IMG/VR virus record: IMGVR_UViG_3300043411_000858
Coordinates: 1 to 28,549 of that record
DNA length: 28,549 nucleotides
Source: a virus
Direction: 5' to 3' (one strand)
Below, piece by piece: positions 3-22,152 of the stretch. Below the pieces are notes generated by a model that saw only the letters and a program-made list of their open reading frames with translations, searched no databases and was not told the origin of the DNA. Every line of letters starts with the position of its first letter. Within the stretch, counting starts at the first letter, position 1. The position numbers were made by a program, and so were the translations under genes.

Positions 3-254
3 CTCTACATCGGCCCTGAGTTTCAAGGGAAGGGTTATGGGAAGGACGCGCTTTACACGCTACTTCGGCACGGCTTTGAAGACATGAACTTATTTCGTAT
101 TTGGGGTGAGACTTTCGACGGGAATCCGGCTTTTTCCATGTTTAAGAACTTGGGAATGGTCTACGAGGGAACGCAACGAAAGTCTTACTTTAGAAACGGG
201 AAGTTTATCGACTCTCACCTAGTGGGGATGTTGAGAGAGGAATTCAAACCGTGA
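3..254 (+). CDS. GNAT-family N-acetyltransferase, C-terminal part (5' end outside window)
   Basis: The open frame runs in from the left edge to a TGA and gives 83 residues. It opens with IGPEFQGKGYGKDAL, the acetyl-CoA pyrophosphate-binding loop (Q/R-x-x-G-x-G/A) of GNAT enzymes, followed by the NLFRIWGE strand and the NPAFSMFKNLGM helix and turn typical of the RimJ/RimL type. The ending YFRNGKFIDSHLVGML is also standard for this group. RimL-like enzymes acetylate ribosomal protein N-termini or amino sugars; PseH of pseudaminic acid synthesis belongs to the same fold. The window also holds a nonulosonic acid synthase and a Maf-type protein, so a sugar substrate is attractive, but the fragment does not prove it. 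The gene overlaps the next one by GTGA, so the two are probably co-translated. Confidence 0.85.
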   Translation, partial: LYIGPEFQGKGYGKDALYTLLRHGFEDMNLFRIWGETFDGNPAFSMFKNLGMVYEGTQRKSYFRNGKFIDSHLVGMLREEFKP

Positions 255-9181: not shown

Positions 9182-9823
9182 TTAAATGATTCCAAAGTTA
9201 GTAGTTAAGGCGTCCTCTTCCCTGGAAACTCGAGTAAACCCATCGGCACGCCTTCTAATTTTCACATGCCATTCGACCTCTGCCATTCCCGTGAACCACT
9301 TGTCTCGCCAAAACGTAGTAAGCGGGTGTCCCAAGTCTTTCGGACACATCCCGTAGGTAACGCCGTTGACCAATACGTCGTGATAGCGAGAGGGTGTTGA
9401 AAGAGTATCTGTGGCACCGGCTTTCACTGGCTCGTTGTAAGACCACGTTTTAATCACAAGCGCCGAAGTGTCGGGCGTTGGATAAAGTGTCATCGTGTCG
9501 TTGAAAAAAGTGTAGTAGACCGGGGTTCCTGATTGGGCGAGCCCTGTGGGATTTAGTTGGTCGAACTGTTCCTGCGTAATTTTTTGAAGCTTCGTTCCGT
9601 TGTAGGTGACTCGTAAAACATCTTGAGCGTAGGTGGGCTTTGAATAGTCAGCGGTTCCCGAAGTGCTCGTTTGGGTGGATGTAGATTCAATGCATCTTGT
9701 TTTTCTGGCAAGCTGCAATTCCGTCGCATACAGGATATTCAATATCTCAGTCTGAGACCAAAGGGTGTCAGAAACTGCGTTGAGGTTGTTCTGTGCGGCT
9801 TCAACTATTTCTGTGGGCGTCAC
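9182..9823 (-). CDS. head-tail adaptor (tail tubular protein A-like)
   Basis: The 213-residue product opens with TPTEIVEAAQNNLNAVSD and a helix ILNILYATELQLAR. The middle has the beta segment LRVTYNGTKLQKITQEQFDQ and PVYYTFFNDTMTLYPTPD (about residues 68-118), and the C-terminal part has SRYHDVLVNGVTYGM. This order is that of adaptor proteins that dock below the portal ring in podoviruses. A GTG start follows GGGGAG. It sits just before the nozzle gene, as expected. The 61 bp before it contain no gene; I see no clear terminator in them. Confidence 0.75.
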   Translation of the reverse strand: MTPTEIVEAAQNNLNAVSDTLWSQTEILNILYATELQLARKTRCIESTSTQTSTSGTADYSKPTYAQDVLRVTYNGTKLQKITQEQFDQLNPTGLAQSGTPVYYTFFNDTMTLYPTPDTSALVIKTWSYNEPVKAGATDTLSTPSRYHDVLVNGVTYGMCPKDLGHPLTTFWRDKWFTGMAEVEWHVKIRRRADGFTRVSREEDALTTNFGII

Positions 9824-10873: not shown

Positions 10874-11227
10874 CTAGTCTCCGCAGACCATTTTGAACGA
10901 AGCGCCACCGTCTACAGTCGCCGTGGATTCGATCTTCAAGAAACGAAACCCGTTAGGAATCGGCACATAGCAGTTAGTGGCGGCGCTTGCGATTGCGAAA
11001 TCGTTTGGAGTCGACACGGTGGATGAGTTAATCATCGGGTGTTTAACCCTTCGATACGTTCCGCCGCTTTCAGTACACACTTGAATGTGAAGCTGAGTGT
11101 TTGACGCCATCGATGGGACGGCTAAATAAACCTTTTCCCATTGTCTGTTCCCAAAATCGACTTCACTAGTAAGGGTTCCCCCGCTAGACATAGTCGCAGT
11201 AAATACGCTGACTGCACCGTGTGCCAT
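10874..11227 (-). CDS. small beta-rich virion protein
   Basis: The 117-residue product is rich in Ser, Thr, Val and short beta segments (EKVYLAVPSM, TQLHIQVCTESGG, GFRFLKIESTATVDGGASFK). This pattern suggests a beta-sandwich. It stands in a run of three small genes between the DUF115 protein and the zinc-finger protein, each with its own ribosome site. A role as a minor virion or appendage protein is inferred from location. I cannot name a family. Confidence 0.6.
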   Translation of the reverse strand: MAHGAVSVFTATMSSGGTLTSEVDFGNRQWEKVYLAVPSMASNTQLHIQVCTESGGTYRRVKHPMINSSTVSTPNDFAIASAATNCYVPIPNGFRFLKIESTATVDGGASFKMVCGD

Positions 11228-11239
11228 TAGGACCTCCTA

Positions 11240-11512
11240 TTATTTTCCGTAAACTGTGATAAAAAATCTGTCGCCAGATGCAGCGCCGGAAACCATGATA
11301 GATCCGTTTGCTGCAGCCGATGCGGCACTGATATTTGATCGGAACTTAACCAGACTGAATGTCGCCATCGACACCGGACCAACATTAAACGCGTCAACTC
11401 TGGCAAGGCCAGTCTCTACCACGCCACTTTGTGCGTCGGCTGTGACGTCAAAAATACAAACCCGTTTATTTCCGAACACCGTTTTATCAACTACCGTTAC
11501 TGAGTAAGCCAT
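11240..11512 (-). CDS. small beta-rich virion protein
   Basis: The 90-residue product begins VTVVDKTVFGNKRVCIFDVT, a pattern I associate with small conserved proteins in phage structural operons. The rest alternates beta strands with Gly/Ala/Ser turns and ends in DRFFITVYGK. It is probably a single beta-sandwich domain. It follows the DUF115 gene by 12 bp and has AAGGAG upstream. It could be a minor capsid or spike component, and so a possible target of the glycosyltransferase-like protein encoded just before it; that link is only positional. Confidence 0.6.
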   Translation of the reverse strand: MAYSVTVVDKTVFGNKRVCIFDVTADAQSGVVETGLARVDAFNVGPVSMATFSLVKFRSNISAASAAANGSIMVSGAASGDRFFITVYGK

Positions 11513-11524
11513 TTTAGTTTCTCC

Positions 11525-12538
11525 TTAAAATAAAGTTTTCTTTTCAATCACTGTCGGATTTTCACATTGCTCGCGCACGTGATCAGACAGTGAGTACATT
11601 GCGATAACGTCTTCCAAAGCCATTTGTCGGATCTGCATAATGTTCCCCTCTGGGTAACTTCCAAAAATCCCACCCTCAGTCGCATTGATGTAAATCCCTG
11701 GAACCGAGCAAACTCTCGACTCAAACCAACACTTAAAATTGTAGTAACTTGCCCACGTGCAAACACGGTTTCCAAACACGTCGGTAGCTCGCATTACTTG
11801 GCCTATGCTCTTGTCGTATTTCGATTGCCAGGCATGAAACTTCTTTGTGTAGGAAAAAGAAAAGTCAGCGCCTACAAAAACAATCGGGTTAGCTCCCATG
11901 ACGGCTTTTGCAATGTAGAAGGACGCGCCTAAAACATTCCCGCCAGAACTAACATACGTACTGAAGGGCTCCACCGAATCCATTGCGTCGGTAACTTCTT
12001 TGTCTGGAATGGGTGCGTTGTACCAAATGATTTCACCCTTCCATTTTTCGATAAGAAGAGGATTAGAACCAACGAAAGCGATGAGTTTTTTATCCTTTGT
12101 CGATTCAAAATACTCTTCCGGTGTTTTCGTTCCACCTTCTGAAACCTCTTCGATTGTGACGGGACCTGCGTCTAAGGTGACGTAGAAATCAGGCTTGATT
12201 CCTCGGTCTTCTAGAAATTGGTAATTATGCAAACAACTAATGACCGGGATTCCACGTGTGTCCTTAAGACAGTCGACATTCCCTTTTAAAGAGGGGCCGC
12301 TTCCTACGACGATGCACGGCTTGTGAAGTAGGTGATTAAAATACTTTCCAAGCCCTCGGTCTTTGAACGGACCAAAGCGTCTGTGGTTTTCTTTTGTTTG
12401 ATTAATCCACGTGTCTCGCCAGGTGCTGACAGTGATCGCGTCACCTGTGCATGCCTGTGCGTGAAGCTGACTTGGGGACGAAGGAGGTCCCGAAATCACT
12501 GGTTGAAATTCTAAATCCATTTCAATCGTCTTAATCAA
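11525..12538 (-). CDS. DUF115 / Maf-type glycosyltransferase-like protein
   Basis: The 337-residue protein carries the DUF115 (MptE-like, motility-associated factor) core. KPCIVVGSGPSLKGNVDCL (residues 73-91) gives the nucleotide-binding GSGPS loop, and GIPVISCLHNYQFL, GIKPDFYVTLDAGP (residues 113-126) and LIAFVGSNP follow in family order. Maf proteins transfer pseudaminic or legionaminic acid to flagellin; other members are pterin pyrophosphokinases. The presence of a NeuB/PseI-type synthase 7 kb upstream favours the nonulosonic acid role. The gene lies within the virion operon, after a terminator and before small beta-rich virion proteins, so a capsid or tail target is plausible. The first 70 residues are not typical of the core and could bind the acceptor. 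The exact sugar and acceptor are unknown. Confidence 0.8.
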   Translation of the reverse strand: MIKTIEMDLEFQPVISGPPSSPSQLHAQACTGDAITVSTWRDTWINQTKENHRRFGPFKDRGLGKYFNHLLHKPCIVVGSGPSLKGNVDCLKDTRGIPVISCLHNYQFLEDRGIKPDFYVTLDAGPVTIEEVSEGGTKTPEEYFESTKDKKLIAFVGSNPLLIEKWKGEIIWYNAPIPDKEVTDAMDSVEPFSTYVSSGGNVLGASFYIAKAVMGANPIVFVGADFSFSYTKKFHAWQSKYDKSIGQVMRATDVFGNRVCTWASYYNFKCWFESRVCSVPGIYINATEGGIFGSYPEGNIMQIRQMALEDVIAMYSLSDHVREQCENPTVIEKKTLF

Positions 12539-12550
12539 TCAACAAATCCT

Positions 12551-12588
12551 TTTAAAAAACGGGGTGAGGGAGGCAACGCCCCCACCCC
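12551..12588 (-). terminator. intrinsic terminator after the capsid genes
   Basis: On the minus strand GGGGTGGGGGC-GTT-GCCTCCCTCACCCC forms a GC-rich hairpin (12561-12588) with a few mismatches, directly followed by G and six T (plus-strand A run at 12554-12559). It lies between the putative decoration gene and the DUF115 gene. It would stop or reduce transcription after the capsid, giving high capsid and lower downstream expression. No new promoter is obvious between it and the DUF115 start, so partial read-through is likely. Confidence 0.8.
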
Positions 12589-12605
12589 TTGTGAAGGGAT
12601 ATCCA

Positions 12606-13091
12606 CTAGTAAATGGACACGTACAGTAGCGAGAGACTCGCTCCAGTTCCACCAGACGCGCCTGCGGAAAGAATCTTTCCGAAGACATGACCGTCATCAA
12701 TAGCACTCGTTGCGACCATTACGTCGGTGCAGAATTTTCCATCTGCAGCAAGTCGCGCTACTTGGTTAATAACAGGGGCCGTGCTAGCACGTCCGTTTGC
12801 CGCATCGACTACGCCTTTTTTCAAAAGCCAGCCGTAGGTTCCAGTGGTTAGCGATTCATGCTTGGCAAAGCCAGCGCACATTTCGCCACTCACAGCACCA
12901 GTTGCAACAACCGAGTGTCCACTCGTTCCCGAGTAAACAGCGCCGATGCCCATGGATACGCAGCCGTTGGCATAAACGTATTCATAGACTTCGCCGTCGT
13001 GAAACCGCTGCACACCAAGTTCAACACTTGGAGTCGCGGTCACAGCCGAGACAGATTCGAATAAGATTGGATCAGCTCCATAGAATCCCAT
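12606..13091 (-). CDS. putative capsid decoration protein
   Basis: The 161-residue product lies directly after the major capsid gene, where podoviruses and siphoviruses often encode a capsid decoration or head-stabilising protein. It is rich in Gly, Ala, Ser and Val, with beta segments (VYEYVYANGCVSMGIGAVYS, HSVVATGAVSGEMCAGFAKH) and no enzymatic motif. A terminator follows 17 bp downstream, so it is expressed together with the capsid. The call rests on position and composition. A fibre or other surface protein is the alternative. Confidence 0.6.
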   Translation of the reverse strand: MGFYGADPILFESVSAVTATPSVELGVQRFHDGEVYEYVYANGCVSMGIGAVYSGTSGHSVVATGAVSGEMCAGFAKHESLTTGTYGWLLKKGVVDAANGRASTAPVINQVARLAADGKFCTDVMVATSAIDDGHVFGKILSAGASGGTGASLSLLYVSIY

Positions 13092-13109
13092 TTTGATTCT
13101 CCTTTTAAA

Positions 13110-14027
13110 TTAAGCAGTGATAGCCGTTAAGCCAGCGTGCATTCTGTTATTGGACGACGCCAAAACCATTGCTGCAAAGATTTTTCCAACCTTTACATTC
13201 TGGTTAATTGGGGACATGAACGGCTCAAAACGGAAATTTTCATCTTTGTGCACATAGAGGTGTAGATATTCCTCGTTGAACATAAGGATGTGTCCGCTTG
13301 GAACTTTTGAGTCAGCGATGTAAGGAACACCGTTGAACATCAAGGAAGTAAAACCAGCTTCGGCCGTTTCAGAATCCATGAAACGTTGTTGCGGCTGTAG
13401 CAAGCCGTAGAAACGATCATAGTTCGCAGTGGTTGCGCAGATAACGGAAGGACTGTCTCCGTTGATAGACGCATTCGACCACTGAGTTTGAAGTGCCCCA
13501 ATGCTCAAGGTTGTCGTCGTAGCGTCTACGTTCGATTGCCACCAGGAATAGGTCGACTGGGAGATTCCGCCGTAGGTGTTAGACGTACTTACGAAAGTAC
13601 GAGCACCAACGATTGCTTTGGAATCTGTTCCCGCATTATAAAGACCTGCGGCAACGGTATCCTTGATGGATTTTTCTGCAATTTGAACTTTCGATTTAAC
13701 GAAGTTTAATTTCGCAGCATCTCCGCTATTCATCAACTCGTCACGACGAGAGATAGAAATCGCAGCGTAGATTTGAGCCCATTGGAACTCGGCACCACTG
13801 ATGACGTCGTTATCTGCAGTGTTTAGAGTATCGGCACCAGAATACCAGCCCACACTCGAGGTTTGAGCGTAGTTAAGCGGTTGGATTACCGAGCGTCCGC
13901 CGTCTAGCATGCTTTTCTTCTTTTGAAGACGCTGCAAGAGCGGGGTCGATTTAAAAATATTGTCTACTAACTTAGGGATGTATTTCTTCTCTGTGATTGC
14001 AGAGATCTGATCATACGTAAGAGGCAT
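13110..14027 (-). CDS. major capsid protein
   Basis: The 305-residue product has the layout of an HK97-fold capsid protein. The N-terminal arm (YDQISAITEKKYIPKLVDNI, then STPLLQRLQ) is followed by an E-loop-like region (GGRSVIQPLNYAQTSSVGWY, residues 43-62), the spine-like helix around residues 100-130 (KLNFVKSKVQIAEKSIKDTV) and a P-domain/A-domain sheet with MFNGVPYIADSKVPSGHILMF (residues 229-249). The ending has beta strands with FRFEPFMSPINQNVKVGKIF. It sits right after the scaffold gene and before the decoration gene and terminator, and has a strong AAGGAG ribosome site. Confidence 0.85.
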   Translation of the reverse strand: MPLTYDQISAITEKKYIPKLVDNIFKSTPLLQRLQKKKSMLDGGRSVIQPLNYAQTSSVGWYSGADTLNTADNDVISGAEFQWAQIYAAISISRRDELMNSGDAAKLNFVKSKVQIAEKSIKDTVAAGLYNAGTDSKAIVGARTFVSTSNTYGGISQSTYSWWQSNVDATTTTLSIGALQTQWSNASINGDSPSVICATTANYDRFYGLLQPQQRFMDSETAEAGFTSLMFNGVPYIADSKVPSGHILMFNEEYLHLYVHKDENFRFEPFMSPINQNVKVGKIFAAMVLASSNNRMHAGLTAITA

Positions 14028-14036
14028 AATTTCTCC

Positions 14037-14978
14037 TTAGCCAACGCCTAGTTCGTCTAGTGCGTCTTGGGTTATGTCGTCATACGATTTAGATCTGACA
14101 TTCTGAATGCGCCGAATATCTTGAGTGGGTTTCGTTGTCGTGGGTCCTAAACCAAGTTTCGTTTGTTTCTTGATTTCCTTCCCAGTTTGCTCCTTAACCG
14201 ACACCTCGTGACGCTTCAAATGCTCGTCATGTAAGTAATCGTTTGCGGCAGCGCGAAAAGAACCAATCTTGTTATCAATGGCGTGTTGAAGAATGCGGTT
14301 TTCTAAATCGAGACCACTTTCATCGCGACCATTCCAATCAAAGTGCGAGTACTTTTCCCGGTACTCACTTACCTGGCTGTCTAACTCAGTGTCTTTTTGT
14401 GCTTCGGCCTCAAAACGTTGGCGCTCTTCGTTAAGTCGCTTTTCTTGCTCACGTTCTGAAACCAGACTTTGCACAGTCTGCTTTAGCTCTTCTATCACCG
14501 GGTGTGCGGTTGGAGTTGCGGTGCCTTGCTCCTGGAGTCGTTGTTGATAAGCCTCTTGAACAGTGCTCCACCATTGCGGGTCGCGTTTGATGTAATCATC
14601 GACTTCCCGGTAGCGGCTCAACTGTTTTTCGAGTTCTTGAAACTTTGGATGCTTTGTCGCATCGAATTCTTTTTGCCACTTCTCACGTTCCTGAGTGAGT
14701 AAGGACGCGCGGTTTTGGTGAAACTCGCGCATCTTTTCTTCGTAGTCCCAGCCCTTTTGAGCAAAAGGGATCATCTCCTCAGGGGTGAATTCTCGCTTCA
14801 CGCCCTTGCGGATTAACTCGTAACGCTTTTCAGCCGCAGTTTTTGGCGCTTCGGTTACATCCTGAGTGTCGGCCGTAGCTACCTCAGGTGTCGCGCCCTC
14901 GGCTGATTCTACGGACGAAATGAGCGCGTCGACTTCTCCGATATTAGAAGGAACTGCACTTGTATCGAAATTATCCAT
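14037..14978 (-). CDS. capsid scaffolding protein
   Basis: The 313-residue product is acidic at the start, then a long charged helix rich in Glu, Gln, Lys and Arg (about residues 50-230), with a short basic end (KEIKKQTKLGLG and onward). This is typical of phage scaffold proteins, which guide procapsid assembly and then leave or are cut. The basic C-terminal helix-turn-helix-like tail is the usual capsid-binding part. It lies between the portal cluster and the major capsid gene, in the standard order. No protease motif is seen. Confidence 0.8.
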   Translation of the reverse strand: MDNFDTSAVPSNIGEVDALISSVESAEGATPEVATADTQDVTEAPKTAAEKRYELIRKGVKREFTPEEMIPFAQKGWDYEEKMREFHQNRASLLTQEREKWQKEFDATKHPKFQELEKQLSRYREVDDYIKRDPQWWSTVQEAYQQRLQEQGTATPTAHPVIEELKQTVQSLVSEREQEKRLNEERQRFEAEAQKDTELDSQVSEYREKYSHFDWNGRDESGLDLENRILQHAIDNKIGSFRAAANDYLHDEHLKRHEVSVKEQTGKEIKKQTKLGLGPTTTKPTQDIRRIQNVRSKSYDDITQDALDELGVG

Positions 14979-14995
14979 TAATCAATCTCTCCGAA

Positions 14996-15367
14996 TTACA
15001 TTGCGGGAACGCCACGAGGTCCACCCATTCCAGGGGACATTCCACGAGGGCCGGGCTTTGGTGCGACAGGCAAAGGTCCTTCTCCGCCAGGCGCAGGTGC
15101 TTGTGGTGCCGCGTCCGCTCCGCCACCTAAAACTTTAGAAAGAGCCGTCACAAAATCTCGGTAGCCTTGGATGAGGCTGTCTAGCTGAGAGGTGAGTTGC
15201 TCAGGAACGCTTTGAACGCCTCCCAAAACTTCTTTAAACTTCAACATGTCGGAATGAATTCCAGTGATGAGAGTTTGCACTCCCTTGGACTCTCCACCGC
15301 CGCCCTCTTGGGGTGCTGGTGCGGACATTTCGGGTTTTGGTTCGGCGCTAGGCGGTTGCATTTGCAT
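14996..15367 (-). CDS. small Pro/Gly-rich head-cluster protein
   Basis: The 123-residue product has low-complexity ends, Pro/Gly/Glu-rich at residues 1-30 and Pro/Gly/Ala-rich at residues 85-123. They flank one helical segment (about residues 31-82, VQTLITGIHSDMLKFKEVL and onward). The start at 15367 is backed by AAGGAG. It overlaps the end of the portal gene by 20 bp. Small proteins of this type between portal and scaffold occur in several podoviruses. I do not know the function. A role in head assembly is inferred. Confidence 0.65.
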   Translation of the reverse strand: MQMQPPSAEPKPEMSAPAPQEGGGGESKGVQTLITGIHSDMLKFKEVLGGVQSVPEQLTSQLDSLIQGYRDFVTALSKVLGGGADAAPQAPAPGGEGPLPVAPKPGPRGMSPGMGGPRGVPAM

Positions 15368-17219
15368 TTGGTGCTCCTTGTGGTGGAACAGGCGGCTGTG
15401 TTGCAGCTTTTTGTTTCATCCGTTCAATGATTTTTTCTTTATTCGGGTAGTCGACCTGATTTAGGTATTCCTCAGCGTCGATAATTCCGTATCCGTAAAA
15501 CTTTTCAGCCATCGCAGCTTTTTGTTGTTTGGCAAAGGGTAACGTCGTGCCGGTCGAAATCCTGATATCTAGCTTCGATTTGATTTGATATTCCTTGGGC
15601 GGTTGTTCGATGTACTGACCGGTGGCAGGGTCCATCGCGTATTCAATCACGGTCGCAACCTTTTGTACTTCACCTGATTCGTCGGTTTTTGTATCAACAC
15701 CAAACTTAAAATAAGTCGGCGCATTTTGGTTGTTAGTAAGTCTCACGACTCTAGGAATCGTGTAGCCCCCTAAAATCCTATCAACCATCAAGTCGCCAGT
15801 TTCTTTTAAGAAAATCTCAATGTTTCTGGATTTTCCACGAAGTTTTGTTTGCGCAGCCTCTTGAAGCTGTTCGATTGCGTAACCGGAAGAATTTTGAGAA
15901 GGAGCAACACCGCGAGAGGTGTCGTTGGTGCTTCCAAGTTTCGTGAGCACTCTCTCAACGAAAAATTGCAGCGTGTCCATGACGTAGGGTTGTAGCTGCG
16001 TGCCGGATTCTCTTCGTACTTCGGTGCCGCGAATTTTCTCAACGACAAGTCCCGGTGTGTTTGTAAGATTCTCTGTGTCGACACCAGAATCAGAATCAAC
16101 AATCCAGATTGGGTTTCCGGTGAGAATCAGAACATCTAGCACGTAACTCACAAGCTTATTGACGATAACTTGGGGGCTTTTTAGTTGTTCGACTTCGCCA
16201 ACGCCCCAAAACTCTCGAGGCATAATGTGGTCAACCAAACGCGAGTAGGGGAAGTTACCGTATTCGTTGTCCACATCCTGGAGGAGCACTCCATTTGCGA
16301 CTTCAATCTTTCGTCCGTTGGGATACTTCTTTTTCGTTTGATAAAGTTTTTTAGCAAGGCCGGTTTCTTCATCCGTTTCGCCCTCTAATTCCTCTTCGAT
16401 TACTTCGTCTGACTTTAGGTAGCAACAAACGCGAAGCACTTGGTCTAGTTGTTCGGCTGCAAGTTCGTTCCCGTAGTTGACCGGCACGCTGTTATCGGTG
16501 GGTGACTTTACTCGGATATCGTCTTGCTCTTCGCGGGCCATCTTTGCCATGGCAACGTCTGAGATATCGGGGGAGAGGTATTCTGCTACTTCTGGGAATT
16601 CTTTTTTTAGCTTTCCAACATCGGTTGGGATTGCAGTAATCGTGTGGTCACAATACTCATCGTTGATTTTGTTACGAGAGTTTGCGTCCGGGTAAAAGTA
16701 AAACGGGTCAACGGTTTCAAAAGCAAAATCTCCCAAGCCTTCTGAGAGTTCTTTTTTCCAAGGAACGCTGCCAATCGCAGTGCCGTAGATTGAGGCGTCT
16801 AAAATTGCTTCGGCTACGACGTAGCTCCAATTATTTGAATCCCATTTACTTCGTAGGATTTGAGAGAGGATTTCTGCGAATTCAAAATCGGACGGGTCTT
16901 CGGGGAGACACTCAATATTAGGACGGGTGTCGGTCAAGATAACTAGAACGCTTTGGATTTCGCTAAAGATGTAATTGAGTACTTCGGAGTGGCGATAAGA
17001 AGGACGTTTTTCTTTCCACTGCTTACCGCGAAAGAATTTGTAGTTTTCTAACCAATTGTGGTCGTAGGGTGCGCGTGCTTTTTTCGCAGCCGAAAAGAGT
17101 TTCTCGACAAGCTTGATAGCTTTTCGTTCCTCTTCGGTTGGACTGTAGCCTGGCTTTGGATCAGTTCCGCTTGGCGGACCTTGATGCTCGGCGAGTTGAT
17201 TCGACGGAATGGAAGCCAT
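15348..17219 (-). CDS. portal protein
   Basis: The 623-residue product has the features of a podovirus portal. YDHNWLENYKFFRGKQW (residues 52-68) opens the wing, followed by VLNYIFSEIQSVLVILTDTR with PNIECLPED. Then come the TVDPFYFYPDA strand (residues 168-178) and the long stem/crown helices with VNKLVSYVLDVLILTGNPIW. The C-terminal part has a QYIEQPPKEYQIKSKLDIRI segment. Portals form the 12-subunit DNA entry vertex and dock the terminase. The gene follows the terminase/FmdB genes after a short gap that holds a repeated element. The length is normal for the family. Confidence 0.85.
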   Translation of the reverse strand: MASIPSNQLAEHQGPPSGTDPKPGYSPTEEERKAIKLVEKLFSAAKKARAPYDHNWLENYKFFRGKQWKEKRPSYRHSEVLNYIFSEIQSVLVILTDTRPNIECLPEDPSDFEFAEILSQILRSKWDSNNWSYVVAEAILDASIYGTAIGSVPWKKELSEGLGDFAFETVDPFYFYPDANSRNKINDEYCDHTITAIPTDVGKLKKEFPEVAEYLSPDISDVAMAKMAREEQDDIRVKSPTDNSVPVNYGNELAAEQLDQVLRVCCYLKSDEVIEEELEGETDEETGLAKKLYQTKKKYPNGRKIEVANGVLLQDVDNEYGNFPYSRLVDHIMPREFWGVGEVEQLKSPQVIVNKLVSYVLDVLILTGNPIWIVDSDSGVDTENLTNTPGLVVEKIRGTEVRRESGTQLQPYVMDTLQFFVERVLTKLGSTNDTSRGVAPSQNSSGYAIEQLQEAAQTKLRGKSRNIEIFLKETGDLMVDRILGGYTIPRVVRLTNNQNAPTYFKFGVDTKTDESGEVQKVATVIEYAMDPATGQYIEQPPKEYQIKSKLDIRISTGTTLPFAKQQKAAMAEKFYGYGIIDAEEYLNQVDYPNKEKIIERMKQKAATQPPVPPQGAPNANATA

Positions 17220-17248
17220 TCCCTGCCCTTGTTAGGGTTTTTGGAGTT

Positions 17249-17283
17249 GCCGTCGAATGGGGGAGGTAGAGTAGTAAAAAGTA
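17249..17283. repeat. intergenic repeat copy A (before portal)
   Basis: This 35-bp stretch matches copy B at 18958-18993 with few differences. Both share GCCGTC, then GGGGGAGGTAGA (12 bp identical), then AGTAAAAAGTA, followed by A-rich DNA on the plus strand. Read on the minus strand it lies about 30 bp upstream of the portal start and 24 bp after the FmdB-like stop. A phage promoter, operator or processing site are all possible; no standard -10/-35 pair is evident. Confidence 0.7.
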
Positions 17284-17306
17284 GAGAGTAAAAAAAGGAA
17301 AAACCC

Positions 17307-17612
17307 CTAGTCGTCGTAGTTCGAGAGTTGGGGTTTCAGATGCTTTTCAGGTCTTTCGTTTCCAACTTCAATTAGACCACGATCACGAGCAATCTGTCTA
17401 GCCGCACTGTCGCCCTTTACCACGGTTCCTAGGGCCGGATGAAAGTATGCATCCTGTACCGCCGTTCCGTAAAGGTGTAATTTCTTCGGTGCAAATGCAC
17501 GCGTCATCGTGACGCCGGATGTAGGGCATAATTCTTGTCTTTCAAAATCCTTAAGCGGCTTAATCACCTCAAAAGTCCCGCTGCATCCGCTACATACGTA
17601 TTCGTAAATCAA
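17307..17612 (-). CDS. FmdB-like zinc-ribbon protein, degenerate
   Basis: The 101-residue product begins IYEYVCSGCSGTFEVIKPL, the FmdB-type start with the first zinc knuckle C-x2-C (C7, C10). The second knuckle is altered: CPTSG replaces the usual CPxCG, leaving a single Cys (about C29), so metal binding is doubtful. The TTG start sits in a TTGA overlap with the terminase stop and has AGGAGG 5 bp upstream, which decides the start. FmdB-like proteins are often seen beside phage terminase and portal genes; their job there is not known. The C-terminal 60 residues are not part of the usual family core. Confidence 0.65.
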   Translation of the reverse strand: MIYEYVCSGCSGTFEVIKPLKDFERQELCPTSGVTMTRAFAPKKLHLYGTAVQDAYFHPALGTVVKGDSAARQIARDRGLIEVGNERPEKHLKPQLSNYDD

Positions 17613-18904
17613 TTAGGCCTCCTAGCTCGTAGCCACTTAGAACGTTCCATTAAATCCATCGGCATCGGACCCGTTCCCGGAACCCTTGGAACTTTGGGAA
17701 TTATCTTAGGTCCGTCGAGCCTTAAGAGTTCACGGGATAAATACCGGTCCGCATCAAGACCGTGATCATTCTGAGAAACCGGCACTCTCGCACTGTCTTT
17801 CAAAGATTGATCGACCGACAATTCCTTTTGCTCAGGGTAATGATAAGTCGAATACTCATCAACCCCAGTGGGGCACATGTCCTTAAAAATAAAGAACCTG
17901 CCTTGCTTCATTAACGAATAATGTAAATCAATTCCGAAGCGAATGTCATTGTCCGCTGGACTTGCGGGAATTCCTTTGCGATTTAGTTCTTCAATGTGGG
18001 CCGGCTGCGATGGGTCACAAATCACTCTCTCGAAATGATAAATCCCGTGATAACTCCCAACGGTTTTCACAATGTCGTCAATGGTTAGGTAGTTTTTAAA
18101 GTACTCCCCGATTCGGTAGTGCCGTCCTTCGGGTGTGACGGCTCTTAAAACTAGGGCAAATGGATCCGGGAAGTATCCCCAGTCCACACCTGCATAAAAC
18201 TTCGTCCCCGGTGGCAACGGAAAGGATTGAATGAGGCATTCTTCGTAGAGATCGTAAACCAGACCTTCCATTTTCCCGAACACCCCGTCGTATTTCATCG
18301 CAAAGCGGCGTGGGTCTAGTAGTTTCTTTTGCCTCTCGTACTCAGCTTTAGGAAAGTAGGGGGAGTCAATGCTCCTGCAATTCACAAAATTAACGTCTTC
18401 GCGCTTTCCCTCTGTCGCCTCTTCACAAAGAGCGGCAAGCCAGTTCATCGCATACGGTGTGGTCGTTAAATCAATCGGTGCCTCTTTAAACGCCGCTCGT
18501 CCCATTACGTTTTCAAAGAAGTAGCGAGATGTCTTACCTGCCTCATCGACCCAGATACGACGAACGTTAGTGATACCTTCCATGGATTCCGGCTCGGTCG
18601 CGGTGCGAAGGTAGATAGTCGACCCCCAATGGGTTTTAAACTCACCTGATTGACGATTAAGACTGCCTAACCCTTTAGCAAAGGTAAGAAACTTTGGAAT
18701 CGTTGCTTGAGACAGGGTTTTGTAGGTATCGGCTGCGATAATAAAGTTGTCGTCTGGGCTTCGGTGTTTCAATAGCCCAAGGGAGTACATCTTAAGGCCG
18801 CCGCCCGTGGTTTTCCCAGATTGAATACCGCCCACGTAGACGTTGATGCGATTGTCTTTGAAATAGAAATGCTCTTGCTTTGGGAAAAGCTTAATTGTCG
18901 GCAT
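17609..18904 (-). CDS. terL: terminase large subunit
   Basis: The 431-residue protein has the full set of packaging-motor motifs. Walker A is GGIQSGKTT (residues 25-33), Walker B is RIWVDEAGK with D120 and E121, and a coupling segment DLTTTPY follows at residues 145-151. The nuclease domain shows AGVDWG with D241, VICDP with D297, and NDHGLDADRY with D380/D384. The ATPase drives DNA into the procapsid and the RNase H-like nuclease cuts the concatemer. The start at 18904 has no strong ribosome site, so expression may rely on an unusual leader; the repeat copy B lies 54 bp upstream. The likely small subunit lies about 6 kb away. Confidence 0.92.
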   Translation of the reverse strand: MPTIKLFPKQEHFYFKDNRINVYVGGIQSGKTTGGGLKMYSLGLLKHRSPDDNFIIAADTYKTLSQATIPKFLTFAKGLGSLNRQSGEFKTHWGSTIYLRTATEPESMEGITNVRRIWVDEAGKTSRYFFENVMGRAAFKEAPIDLTTTPYAMNWLAALCEEATEGKREDVNFVNCRSIDSPYFPKAEYERQKKLLDPRRFAMKYDGVFGKMEGLVYDLYEECLIQSFPLPPGTKFYAGVDWGYFPDPFALVLRAVTPEGRHYRIGEYFKNYLTIDDIVKTVGSYHGIYHFERVICDPSQPAHIEELNRKGIPASPADNDIRFGIDLHYSLMKQGRFFIFKDMCPTGVDEYSTYHYPEQKELSVDQSLKDSARVPVSQNDHGLDADRYLSRELLRLDGPKIIPKVPRVPGTGPMPMDLMERSKWLRARRPN

Positions 18905-18957
18905 AGTGTGGCGCTGCGTTCTAGCGGTTGCAGCAATGTGGGCGTTAAAAAGGCTAT

Positions 18958-18993
18958 GCCGTCAAAGTGGGGGAGGTAGATGAGTAAAAAGTA
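18958..18993. repeat. intergenic repeat copy B (before terminase)
   Basis: This is the second copy of the element at 17249-17283. It starts 13 bp after the stop of the nonulosonic acid synthase gene (minus-strand sense) and 54 bp before the terminase start. The shared order is GCCGTC, GGGGGAGGTAGA and AGTAAAAAGTA on the plus strand. On the minus strand it reads as a T-rich block, then CTACCTCCCCC, then GACGGC. Each copy follows a stop codon and precedes a key packaging gene. Confidence 0.7.
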
Positions 18994-19006
18994 AAAAAAG
19001 TAAAAG

Positions 19007-19999
19007 CTACTTCTGGCAAACGTCTTCATGCCAAAGGGATTGGCCTTGCTTAATCTCTATTCTAGCATTCTTTCCGTCAAACAATTGCCATTGCTCAGGG
19101 GGAGCGCCTCGGTAGTCTGGGGTTTTAGATCTAAAAATCCCAAAGTTCCTTCCCATCTCAAGCCGCTCGCCAACGTAAATATCCTGCGTTGCAATAAGAC
19201 GCCGCCTGTAAGTCGTTTGCATGTCGTCTTCGACTCTTGCCGGTCGCTTTGTTCTACCAAACGAGGTTACTTGAACACGTTTTAAACCCTCAATGAAAGC
19301 GCACATTTCCTCAGGGCTTACTGAAACAGGTGAATCTGGTGTGTCTGATAGTTCCCCTTTAAATAAATCAAAGTGACGCTCAAAAACTGTCGCACCAAAA
19401 GGAACTGACAGAAGGGAAGGGGTGCCGCATGTCGTGTGGTCTGAAATTCCAACGTCAATTCCTGGCCACTGTCTTCGCCACTCACTAAGCGCGTAGAGGC
19501 GATAGTCAGATGGGCTCGCTGGGTAAGCGCCGACGCACTCAAGGAGCGTTACATTTTTAGAGCCGTACTTATTAACGAAGGCCGTGATTTCTAAATCGTG
19601 AGCACAACCCGTAGAGGCAATAATAGGTTTCTCACTAACCAGTATCGCATGCCAAAGGCCAACGTGTTTAAACTCAGCCGAGGCAAGCTTATGTCTTTTT
19701 ACGAAAGGATTTAAAAACTCAACTCCGTCCGGCGAGAATGCTGAGCACATAAACTCAATCCCTACCGCTTCGCAATGCCTTGCAAGACTTGCAATCCACT
19801 CTCTTGGTAGCGAATAGGTGTTATCACCTGGAAATCCGTAGAGTTCGTCATGGGTAAATAATTGAAACTTTACAGCGTCGCAACCCGAAGCCTTTGCTCC
19901 GTCTATTTGTTTTAACGCCGCTTGTTTGTTTGCTGGCGTATCTAGGTATCTTTTCCAGTTAGCACCAACGTCGGCTATGACAAAAAGTCCATTAGGCAT
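19007..19999 (-). CDS. NeuB/PseI-type nonulosonic acid synthase
   Basis: The 330-residue protein has both domains of the sialic acid synthase family. The TIM barrel shows FVIADVGANW (residues 6-15), GCDAVKFQLF (39-48), PIIASTG (125-131), a strand ECVGAYPASPSD (154-165) and GISDHT (184-189), followed by the metal-ligand segment ERHF (H209). The C-terminal part (about 255-330) is a SAF/antifreeze-like domain with RRLIATQDIYVGERLEMG. These enzymes condense phosphoenolpyruvate with a six-carbon amino sugar to give a nine-carbon acid. The GPDH motif of NeuB is replaced by TPDSPVS, nearer to the PseI (pseudaminic acid) pattern, so the product may be pseudaminic- or legionaminic-like. It overlaps the XRE gene by 8 bp and lies just before terminase. 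Confidence 0.85.
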   Translation of the reverse strand: MPNGLFVIADVGANWKRYLDTPANKQAALKQIDGAKASGCDAVKFQLFTHDELYGFPGDNTYSLPREWIASLARHCEAVGIEFMCSAFSPDGVEFLNPFVKRHKLASAEFKHVGLWHAILVSEKPIIASTGCAHDLEITAFVNKYGSKNVTLLECVGAYPASPSDYRLYALSEWRRQWPGIDVGISDHTTCGTPSLLSVPFGATVFERHFDLFKGELSDTPDSPVSVSPEEMCAFIEGLKRVQVTSFGRTKRPARVEDDMQTTYRRRLIATQDIYVGERLEMGRNFGIFRSKTPDYRGAPPEQWQLFDGKNARIEIKQGQSLWHEDVCQK

Positions 20000-21151: not shown

Positions 21152-21370
21152 TCATTTCTTCTCCTTTTTCTCTGGGAAATATTTAGTGAGGAACATTTCT
21201 GCGACTTCGCCGAATTCGTTATCTAGAACCGAGTAATATTTTACTACGTCCCAAGTTTCCTTCACGAAGGGGTGGGAGTTGGCGTAAACGGAAGCGCTTT
21301 CCGATATACAGGGCGAGTAATTAAAATCCATGTCTTTAAAGTCTTCCGGTGTAAAAGGTCCTTCACTCAT
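21152..21370 (-). CDS. hypothetical small phage protein
   Basis: The 72-residue product is acidic and aromatic-rich, with no membrane segment. The segment SHPFVKETWDVVKYYSVLDN (residues 32-51) is probably helical. It starts within an ATGA overlap with the methyltransferase stop and has AGGAG 7 bp upstream, so the two are co-translated. The tail is basic (PEKKEKK). I do not recognise the family. A helper of the methyltransferase or an independent accessory gene is possible. Confidence 0.6.
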   Translation of the reverse strand: MSEGPFTPEDFKDMDFNYSPCISESASVYANSHPFVKETWDVVKYYSVLDNEFGEVAEMFLTKYFPEKKEKK

Positions 21371-22152
21371 CTTTCTTCTCCTCTGCGGGAATTATTTTTT
21401 TTACTTTCAAGGTGTTGATCGTATCTTTTCTGCGCCAATTTACAATATTCTGGCGAGATTTCTATACCGATAAAGTTTCTTCCAAGATTGTGTGCGGCTA
21501 TCGCCGTTGTTCCAGAGCCCATATATGGATCTAAAACAAGCTTTGCGTTTGTAGACGATATAATTCTTTCTATTAACGCAATAGGGTATGGGGCAGGATG
21601 AATGTTACTCATTTCTTGCGTAAAATCCCAGATGTCTCCAAATGCATTGGATTTTGGTGCAAGTTTAAACTTAGGTTTAGCAATCAAATAGATTACTTCG
21701 TATGTAGGTAGAAAATAGCCAGCGTTAAAATTTATTCCACCTTTGCGTCTCCAGATAATAATCTGACGTACTGGAAATCCAGATACAATGTCATGTCGAT
21801 CTTGTAATAGTCCTGCTTGAACACGCCACTTATGATTATAAAAGAACGCACCATCCTCCTTTAAGACTCTCATACACTCGGTCAAAACTTCGCGTTGCCA
21901 ATTGACATACTTATCGTGCGGCATCGAATCGTCATGGTGTGAATAACCTTTTAAAAGTGCTGCATTTGCCCACTTTCCGCCTCGTCCGTCCTTCATTCCA
22001 TTACCTGTAGAGTTTTTCAAATTATAAGGTGGGGAAGTGACAATTAAATCTATCGAGGATGACGGAATATTTTGCATCACTTTGACAGAATCGCCAGCAA
22101 CGAATTTATTTATAAATTCAGAAGGATAATGGGGTTTATTGGGGTTTTTCAT
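21367..22152 (-). CDS. DNA methyltransferase (N4-cytosine or N6-adenine, beta class)
   Basis: The 261-residue protein has the motif order of beta-class amino methyltransferases. The catalytic motif TSPPYNL is at residues 39-45 and the AdoMet site DPYMGSGTTAIAAHNLGRNF is at residues 208-227, so motif IV precedes motif I. NIHPAPYP (183-190) and IGIEIS (228-233) are also typical. TSPPY is commonest in N4-cytosine enzymes but some N6-adenine enzymes have it. There is no restriction endonuclease beside it, so it probably protects phage DNA from host restriction or alters regulation. The gene is visibly more AT-rich than its neighbours, lacks a ribosome site, and follows a truncated gene: signs of recent acquisition. 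Confidence 0.85.
   Translation of the reverse strand: MKNPNKPHYPSEFINKFVAGDSVKVMQNIPSSSIDLIVTSPPYNLKNSTGNGMKDGRGGKWANAALLKGYSHHDDSMPHDKYVNWQREVLTECMRVLKEDGAFFYNHKWRVQAGLLQDRHDIVSGFPVRQIIIWRRKGGINFNAGYFLPTYEVIYLIAKPKFKLAPKSNAFGDIWDFTQEMSNIHPAPYPIALIERIISSTNAKLVLDPYMGSGTTAIAAHNLGRNFIGIEISPEYCKLAQKRYDQHLESKKNNSRRGEER

Follow-up and report, generated by a model that had tools for sequence, protein, structure and literature searches.

In mycobacteriophages, virion glycosylation has been inferred from the genes (PMC11256854). Phage-encoded enzymes are proposed to glycosylate capsid proteins there, and those reported are glycosyltransferases alone. A lone NeuB/PseI-type synthase gene, pseI, has been described on viral DNA from ocean viromes and was read there as augmenting host motility (PMC6359870). 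In bacteria, the Pse and Leg pathways, such as the Campylobacter Pse pathway and the sps system of B. subtilis (PMC7439481), use a dehydratase, an aminotransferase, an acetyltransferase, a NeuB-type synthase and a cytidylyltransferase. The Maf flagellin transferases, represented by the Magnetospirillum enzyme 5mu5, CbMaf and PseD, have a central PF01973 fold with a GSGPS motif, and their genes are found with those for NeuB-type, PseB-like, PseH-like and CMP-sugar synthetase proteins. The central domain of Maf was described as resembling the sialyltransferase Cst-II (PMC11339370).

The phage locus described here has features in common with all of these systems. It was found in a 28,549-nt fragment of a virus record, the window, from which part of the genome is missing. 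The phage Maf-type protein has the same central fold and GSGPS motif as the flagellin Mafs; however, it is about half as long, covers the central domain region only, and is encoded beside capsid genes, not flagellin. The sugar genes of the phage group comprise the same five enzyme types as the Pse/Leg pathways, but the aminotransferase is of class III, whereas PseC and SpsC are DegT-type enzymes, an extra Gfo/Idh-like protein is present, and no PseG/SpsG hydrolase was found. Unlike the mycobacteriophages, these phages carry a donor-sugar pathway together with a Maf-type transferase, and unlike the lone ocean-virome pseI, their synthase gene has a virion-gene context, most of the pathway and a transferase. 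We read the locus as a version of bacterial NulO protein glycosylation that has been taken up among the morphogenesis genes of a phage. A literature search, thin on subscription papers and preprints, turned up no phage described as combining Maf with a complete NulO pathway. We consider it probable that the phage synthesizes a nonulosonic-type sugar activated with CMP, which the Maf-type transferase attaches to a protein at the surface of the virion.

The synthase and the Maf-type protein in the late region

The late region of the window lies on the minus strand and begins with an HTH-like gene and the synthase gene (19007..19999). These are followed by the terminase large subunit (TerL; 17609..18904; phrog_2, 1.3e-42), a zinc-ribbon protein, a P22-type portal protein (15348..17219; PF16510, 1.2e-31), a protein in the scaffold position, the major capsid protein (MCP; 13110..14027; phrog_9953 major head protein, 5e-60), a 161-aa protein (12606..13091), the DUF115 protein (11525..12538), small proteins and the tail genes. 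One of the small proteins (11240..11512), encoded directly downstream of the Maf-like gene, is conserved and keeps this neighbor in relatives. The first-pass annotation had placed both the synthase and the Maf-like gene between structural genes. This was correct for the Maf-like gene, which lies between capsid and tail genes, whereas the synthase stands at the head of the late genes, directly upstream of TerL. The GC content was even across the window (0.44-0.49), giving no sign of a recent insert.

The 330-aa synthase matched the Pfam NeuB family (PF03102) with an E-value of 1e-43 and 149.9 bits, against a cut-off of 22.1, and its best PDB match was PseI (8h2c). A profile built from 23 phage homologues, which were 31-41% identical to the window protein, covered the full length of PseI including the C-terminal domain (E 3e-57), in agreement with the complete two-domain enzyme proposed at first reading. 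The same profile matched N. meningitidis NeuB at 8e-36. K44, Q46, K104, S186-D187-H188, E207, H209 and D222 were invariant in the homologues and aligned with the KxQ, KxxSxE, SDH and ERH (EkH) motifs of solved synthases (1xuu/8h2c) and with their Asp. In this family, residues at these positions bind PEP, metal and substrate. A loss of the metal and PEP residues, which the first-pass annotation had named as evidence against its reading, was therefore not observed. Some synthases of deep branches have no C-terminal domain (211-257 aa), with the core residues kept as judged by eye. The scores against the NCBIfam PseI and NnaB equivalogs, 151.8 and 153.1 bits, fell far under the cut-offs of 340 and 400, so the identity of the product is not readable from them. 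Annotated phages gave only three NeuB matches, all weak, and PHROG contained no match for either the synthase or the Maf-like protein.

The Maf-like gene starts at TTG, with AAGGA upstream, and encodes 337 aa. The protein contains the GSGPS and DFYVTLDAGP motifs noted earlier, with GSGPS, D123 and H104 conserved, and its PF01973 (MptE-like/Maf_flag10) domain scored 82.2 bits (E 5e-23) against a cut-off of 34.6. The NCBIfam PseD/Maf flagellin-modification domain was matched at E 1e-7; at 30.9 bits against a curated cut-off of 670, and with its length of 337 aa, the protein does not have the three-domain architecture of the flagellin Mafs. The solved Maf 5mu5 was its sole convincing PDB sequence match. 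The AlphaFold2 model, based on 37 homologues, reached a pLDDT of 94.5, and Foldseek against the PDB ranked Maf 5mu5 first (4.9e-12), followed by the archaeal MjHPPK (8sd5; 1.5e-5) and then by human sialyltransferases, enzymes that use CMP-sialic acid.

The Pfam family is named after pterin diphosphokinase, and MjHPPK, the second-best fold match, is a pterin diphosphokinase of the MptE type. The first-pass annotation had asked whether the DUF115 protein would group with such kinases. In the Foldseek ranking it sided with the Maf and sialyltransferase folds: the E-value for Maf was lower than that for the kinase by almost seven orders of magnitude, and sialyltransferases came after the kinase, so a pterin kinase was rejected as the leading reading. 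The closest models in BFVD were 'MptE-like' proteins of uncultured phages (6e-14), indicating that phage proteins with this fold had been recorded before, labelled as pterin kinases. Annotated phages gave no DUF115 match at 1e-3.

Gene placement and the sugar operon in relatives

Contigs chosen from IMG/VR in three independent ways agreed on the placement of the two genes. Among loci selected by MCP and with enough DNA, the Maf-like gene followed the MCP gene and the small gene within 2.5 kb in 39 of 42; in the three exceptions, MCP identity was at most 37%. Of 12 MCP-selected loci, 10 had the synthase upstream of TerL at a distance of no more than 3.5 kb, and TerL was next to the synthase in 44 of the 49 loci selected by NeuB. 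When unique proteins were pooled over the earlier selections, Maf-selected loci included, the Maf-like gene came after 69/73 unique MCPs and the synthase upstream of TerL in 23/30. TerL identities among the relatives go down to about 30%, implying a gene order that has long been kept rather than close kinship. Pairwise identities of NeuB, the CMP synthetase and the Maf-like protein tracked those of the portal (Spearman 0.82, 0.86 and 0.81, respectively). The association of the module with virion genes is conserved; chance association of the synthase and the Maf-like gene with them was rejected, since the placement held across the selections.

No isolate of the phage group was found. The nearest isolates by MCP, Stenotrophomonas phage BUCT555 and Myxococcus phage Mx9 (about 32%), had no Maf-like gene in the corresponding stretch, and a search of plasmids returned no match. 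The host search, a single scan of genome contigs with an MCP alignment, yielded only a distant relative from a marine MAG, L126 (MCP 33%), without a Maf-like gene. L126 is an 18-kb tailed-phage contig in a MAG labelled Euryarchaeota (SAT11), and it was probably mis-binned.

The window itself, at 28.5 kb, contained no CMP-sugar synthetase. The search suggested in the first-pass annotation was answered in the relatives, where the gene is present in an operon ending with a GNAT. In long relatives this operon has five genes, encoding a PseB-like dehydratase (204.5 bits to TIGR03589), a Gfo/Idh/MocA-like protein (206 aa), a CMP-sugar synthetase of the CTP_transf_3 family, a class III aminotransferase and a PseH-like GNAT acetyltransferase. 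At the left edge of the window (3..254, plus strand), where a GNAT of the sugar-acetylation type had been noted, the contig end leaves only the C-terminal 83 aa. This fragment is 64% identical to L023:1-711, and full-length homologues from relatives scored best against PseH (57.6 and 61.2 bits). In the closest relative, G014 (L116), the GNAT faces an endolysin gene, as at the left edge of the window. From this common order, the window most likely ends inside the sugar operon. The GNAT fragment would be the truncated last gene of the five, and the operon itself lies outside the window.

The set of dehydratase, aminotransferase, acetyltransferase, synthase and CMP synthetase is complete in relatives, but not in the truncated window. 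All six pathway genes were present in 12 of the 21 relatives read at length, and the others were mostly cut by contig ends. Three relatives, G016, G039 and G041, end in direct repeats of 114-123 bp, which mark a genome as complete, and each carries all six pathway genes and the Maf-like gene. In the deep-branch genomes G047 and G053 the synthase gene is inside the sugar operon, which ties the synthase directly to the pathway; in G022 it adjoins a GNAT gene. The two genes noticed at first reading are confirmed, and the interpretation gains strength because it now covers a conserved set of seven. The enzymes very likely form one CMP-sugar pathway with the Maf-type transferase.

Some genomes varied in gene content. 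In the G047 operon a SAM methyltransferase replaces the Gfo/Idh-like gene (L201:3260-3895, plus strand). In G007 a 417-aa MBL-fold protein (Lactamase_B_3, 1.7e-7), a possible sugar-tailoring enzyme, is encoded between the synthase and TerL (L124:11755-13008, minus strand). In G053 the aminotransferase shares its reading frame with an HNH_3 endonuclease domain (L215:8537-10165, minus strand). Five contigs of 48-63 kb (L252, L253, L254, L255 and L258) carry NeuB, a class III aminotransferase, a CMP synthetase and mostly PseB, with no Maf-like gene detected; these are possibly other phages or bacterial flanks.

The module might instead be an auxiliary one that alters the host surface (flagellin, LPS or capsule) during infection or lysogeny, affecting motility or superinfection exclusion. 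Maf enzymes act on bacterial flagellin (PMC11339370), the lone pseI of ocean viromes has been tabulated among auxiliary genes, under 'motility augmentation' (PMC6359870), and the GNAT and the MBL-fold or methyltransferase variants look like surface-sugar tailoring. However, almost every member has the transferase gene at one set place, between the capsid and the tail genes, and the synthase gene at TerL, both among late virion genes, and the phage protein corresponds to the central Maf domain region only (337 aa against about 640). A role at the host surface thus seems unlikely.

G032 (35.8 kb) encodes a Maf-like protein with every invariant residue, yet has no NeuB and no CMP synthetase. Its aminotransferase is degenerate, without the PLP-lysine motif (L200:12293-13243, plus strand). 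By sequence, the pathway has decayed in this genome while the Maf-like gene is intact; either a CMP-sugar of the host is used, or the transferase has a further role. Such a genome would fit a Maf-like protein that does not glycosylate, for example an assembly factor or the pterin kinase considered above, with the sugar operon serving something else. In addition to the ranking of the fold matches, the repeated co-occurrence of the transferase and the sugar genes in distant branches argues against this, and we regard it as quite improbable.

Candidate acceptors and the proposed pathway

The 161-aa protein encoded between the MCP and Maf-like genes gave an all-beta AlphaFold2 model of moderate confidence (pLDDT 70). 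Its Foldseek matches in the PDB were capsid decoration proteins, namely the phi29 head-fibre base gp8.5 (8.7e-5) and those of FCWL1, T1, HFTV1, TW1 and Pam3; the protein thus models as a capsid decoration protein, similar to a head-fibre base. This decoration-type protein is our first candidate for the glycan acceptor, with the chances evenly balanced.

A second candidate acceptor is the small protein g10874 (10874..11227, minus strand), in which Ser and Thr make up 21% of residues. In some relatives, a homologue or paralogue is encoded beside NeuB and TerL (L018:3229-3555, L083:1636-1980, L087:1171-1515 and L097:4016-4366), and it overlaps the NeuB stop by 4 bp in L018, L087 and L097. In those relatives the synthase is accompanied by a small protein of virion type. 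In the L018/L019 contig pair the MCP gene is split into two frames (L018:8280-9008 and 9238-9459), which could reflect an intron, a frameshift or an assembly error; the portal gene is also split in L018.

In the proposed pathway, the PseB-like dehydratase would act on UDP-GlcNAc, followed by the class III aminotransferase and then the PseH-like GNAT. The NeuB-type synthase would condense the product with PEP, and CTP-dependent activation would yield a CMP-activated nonulosonic-type (sialic-acid-like) sugar. In the cytoplasm of the infected cell, the Maf-like protein would then transfer the sugar to Ser/Thr of a protein on the virion surface. The likeliest acceptor is the small capsid decoration protein, whose gene immediately precedes that of the transferase. 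No gene of the set accounts for the expected release of the amino sugar from UDP, which counts against this scheme.

The first-pass annotation had suggested virion decoration with an acidic nine-carbon sugar, and had named pseudaminic and legionaminic acid as the sugars made in bacteria. The CMP-sugar gene set and the neighbor with a decoration fold support the virion part, and action on a virion protein seems likely to us. The sugar need not be either of these two acids. No protein of the set passed a Pse/Leg equivalog cut-off, the aminotransferase is of class III and not of the PseC type, and no hydrolase of the PseG or NeuC kind was found: PseG (TIGR03590) was absent from the 31 contigs tested, and the NeuC-type epimerase (PF02350) and the GT28-C domain (PF04101) from 12 contigs each. 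A specific claim to either acid is therefore unwarranted. The benefit of the modification may be shielding, stability or adsorption.

The early region of the window encodes an N6/N4 DNA methylase (PF01555, 2e-46; 21367-22152, minus strand), and some phages glycosylate their DNA, so the sugar could be placed on phage DNA instead of protein. However, a non-exhaustive look at the window recognized no base-hydroxymethylating enzyme, and the similarity of the transferase is to NulO transferases that act on proteins and glycans. DNA as the target therefore appears highly improbable.

A broader reading, to which we give somewhat less than an even chance, is that a widespread family of uncultivated phages makes its own, possibly new, nonulosonic-type sugar without the usual hydrolase and shows it on a capsid decoration protein by means of a minimal, single-domain Maf transferase, the sugar genes being the phages' own. 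If virions are indeed modified in this way, the group would provide a minimal Maf-type transferase for study and would tie a transferase to a surface protein of the capsid in a way that can be tested directly. Some virome pseI-type genes might then have to be reassigned from host motility to the virion, and sialic-acid-like virion glycosylation would belong to the core of the whole phage group, passed on vertically, and not be a chance auxiliary gene.
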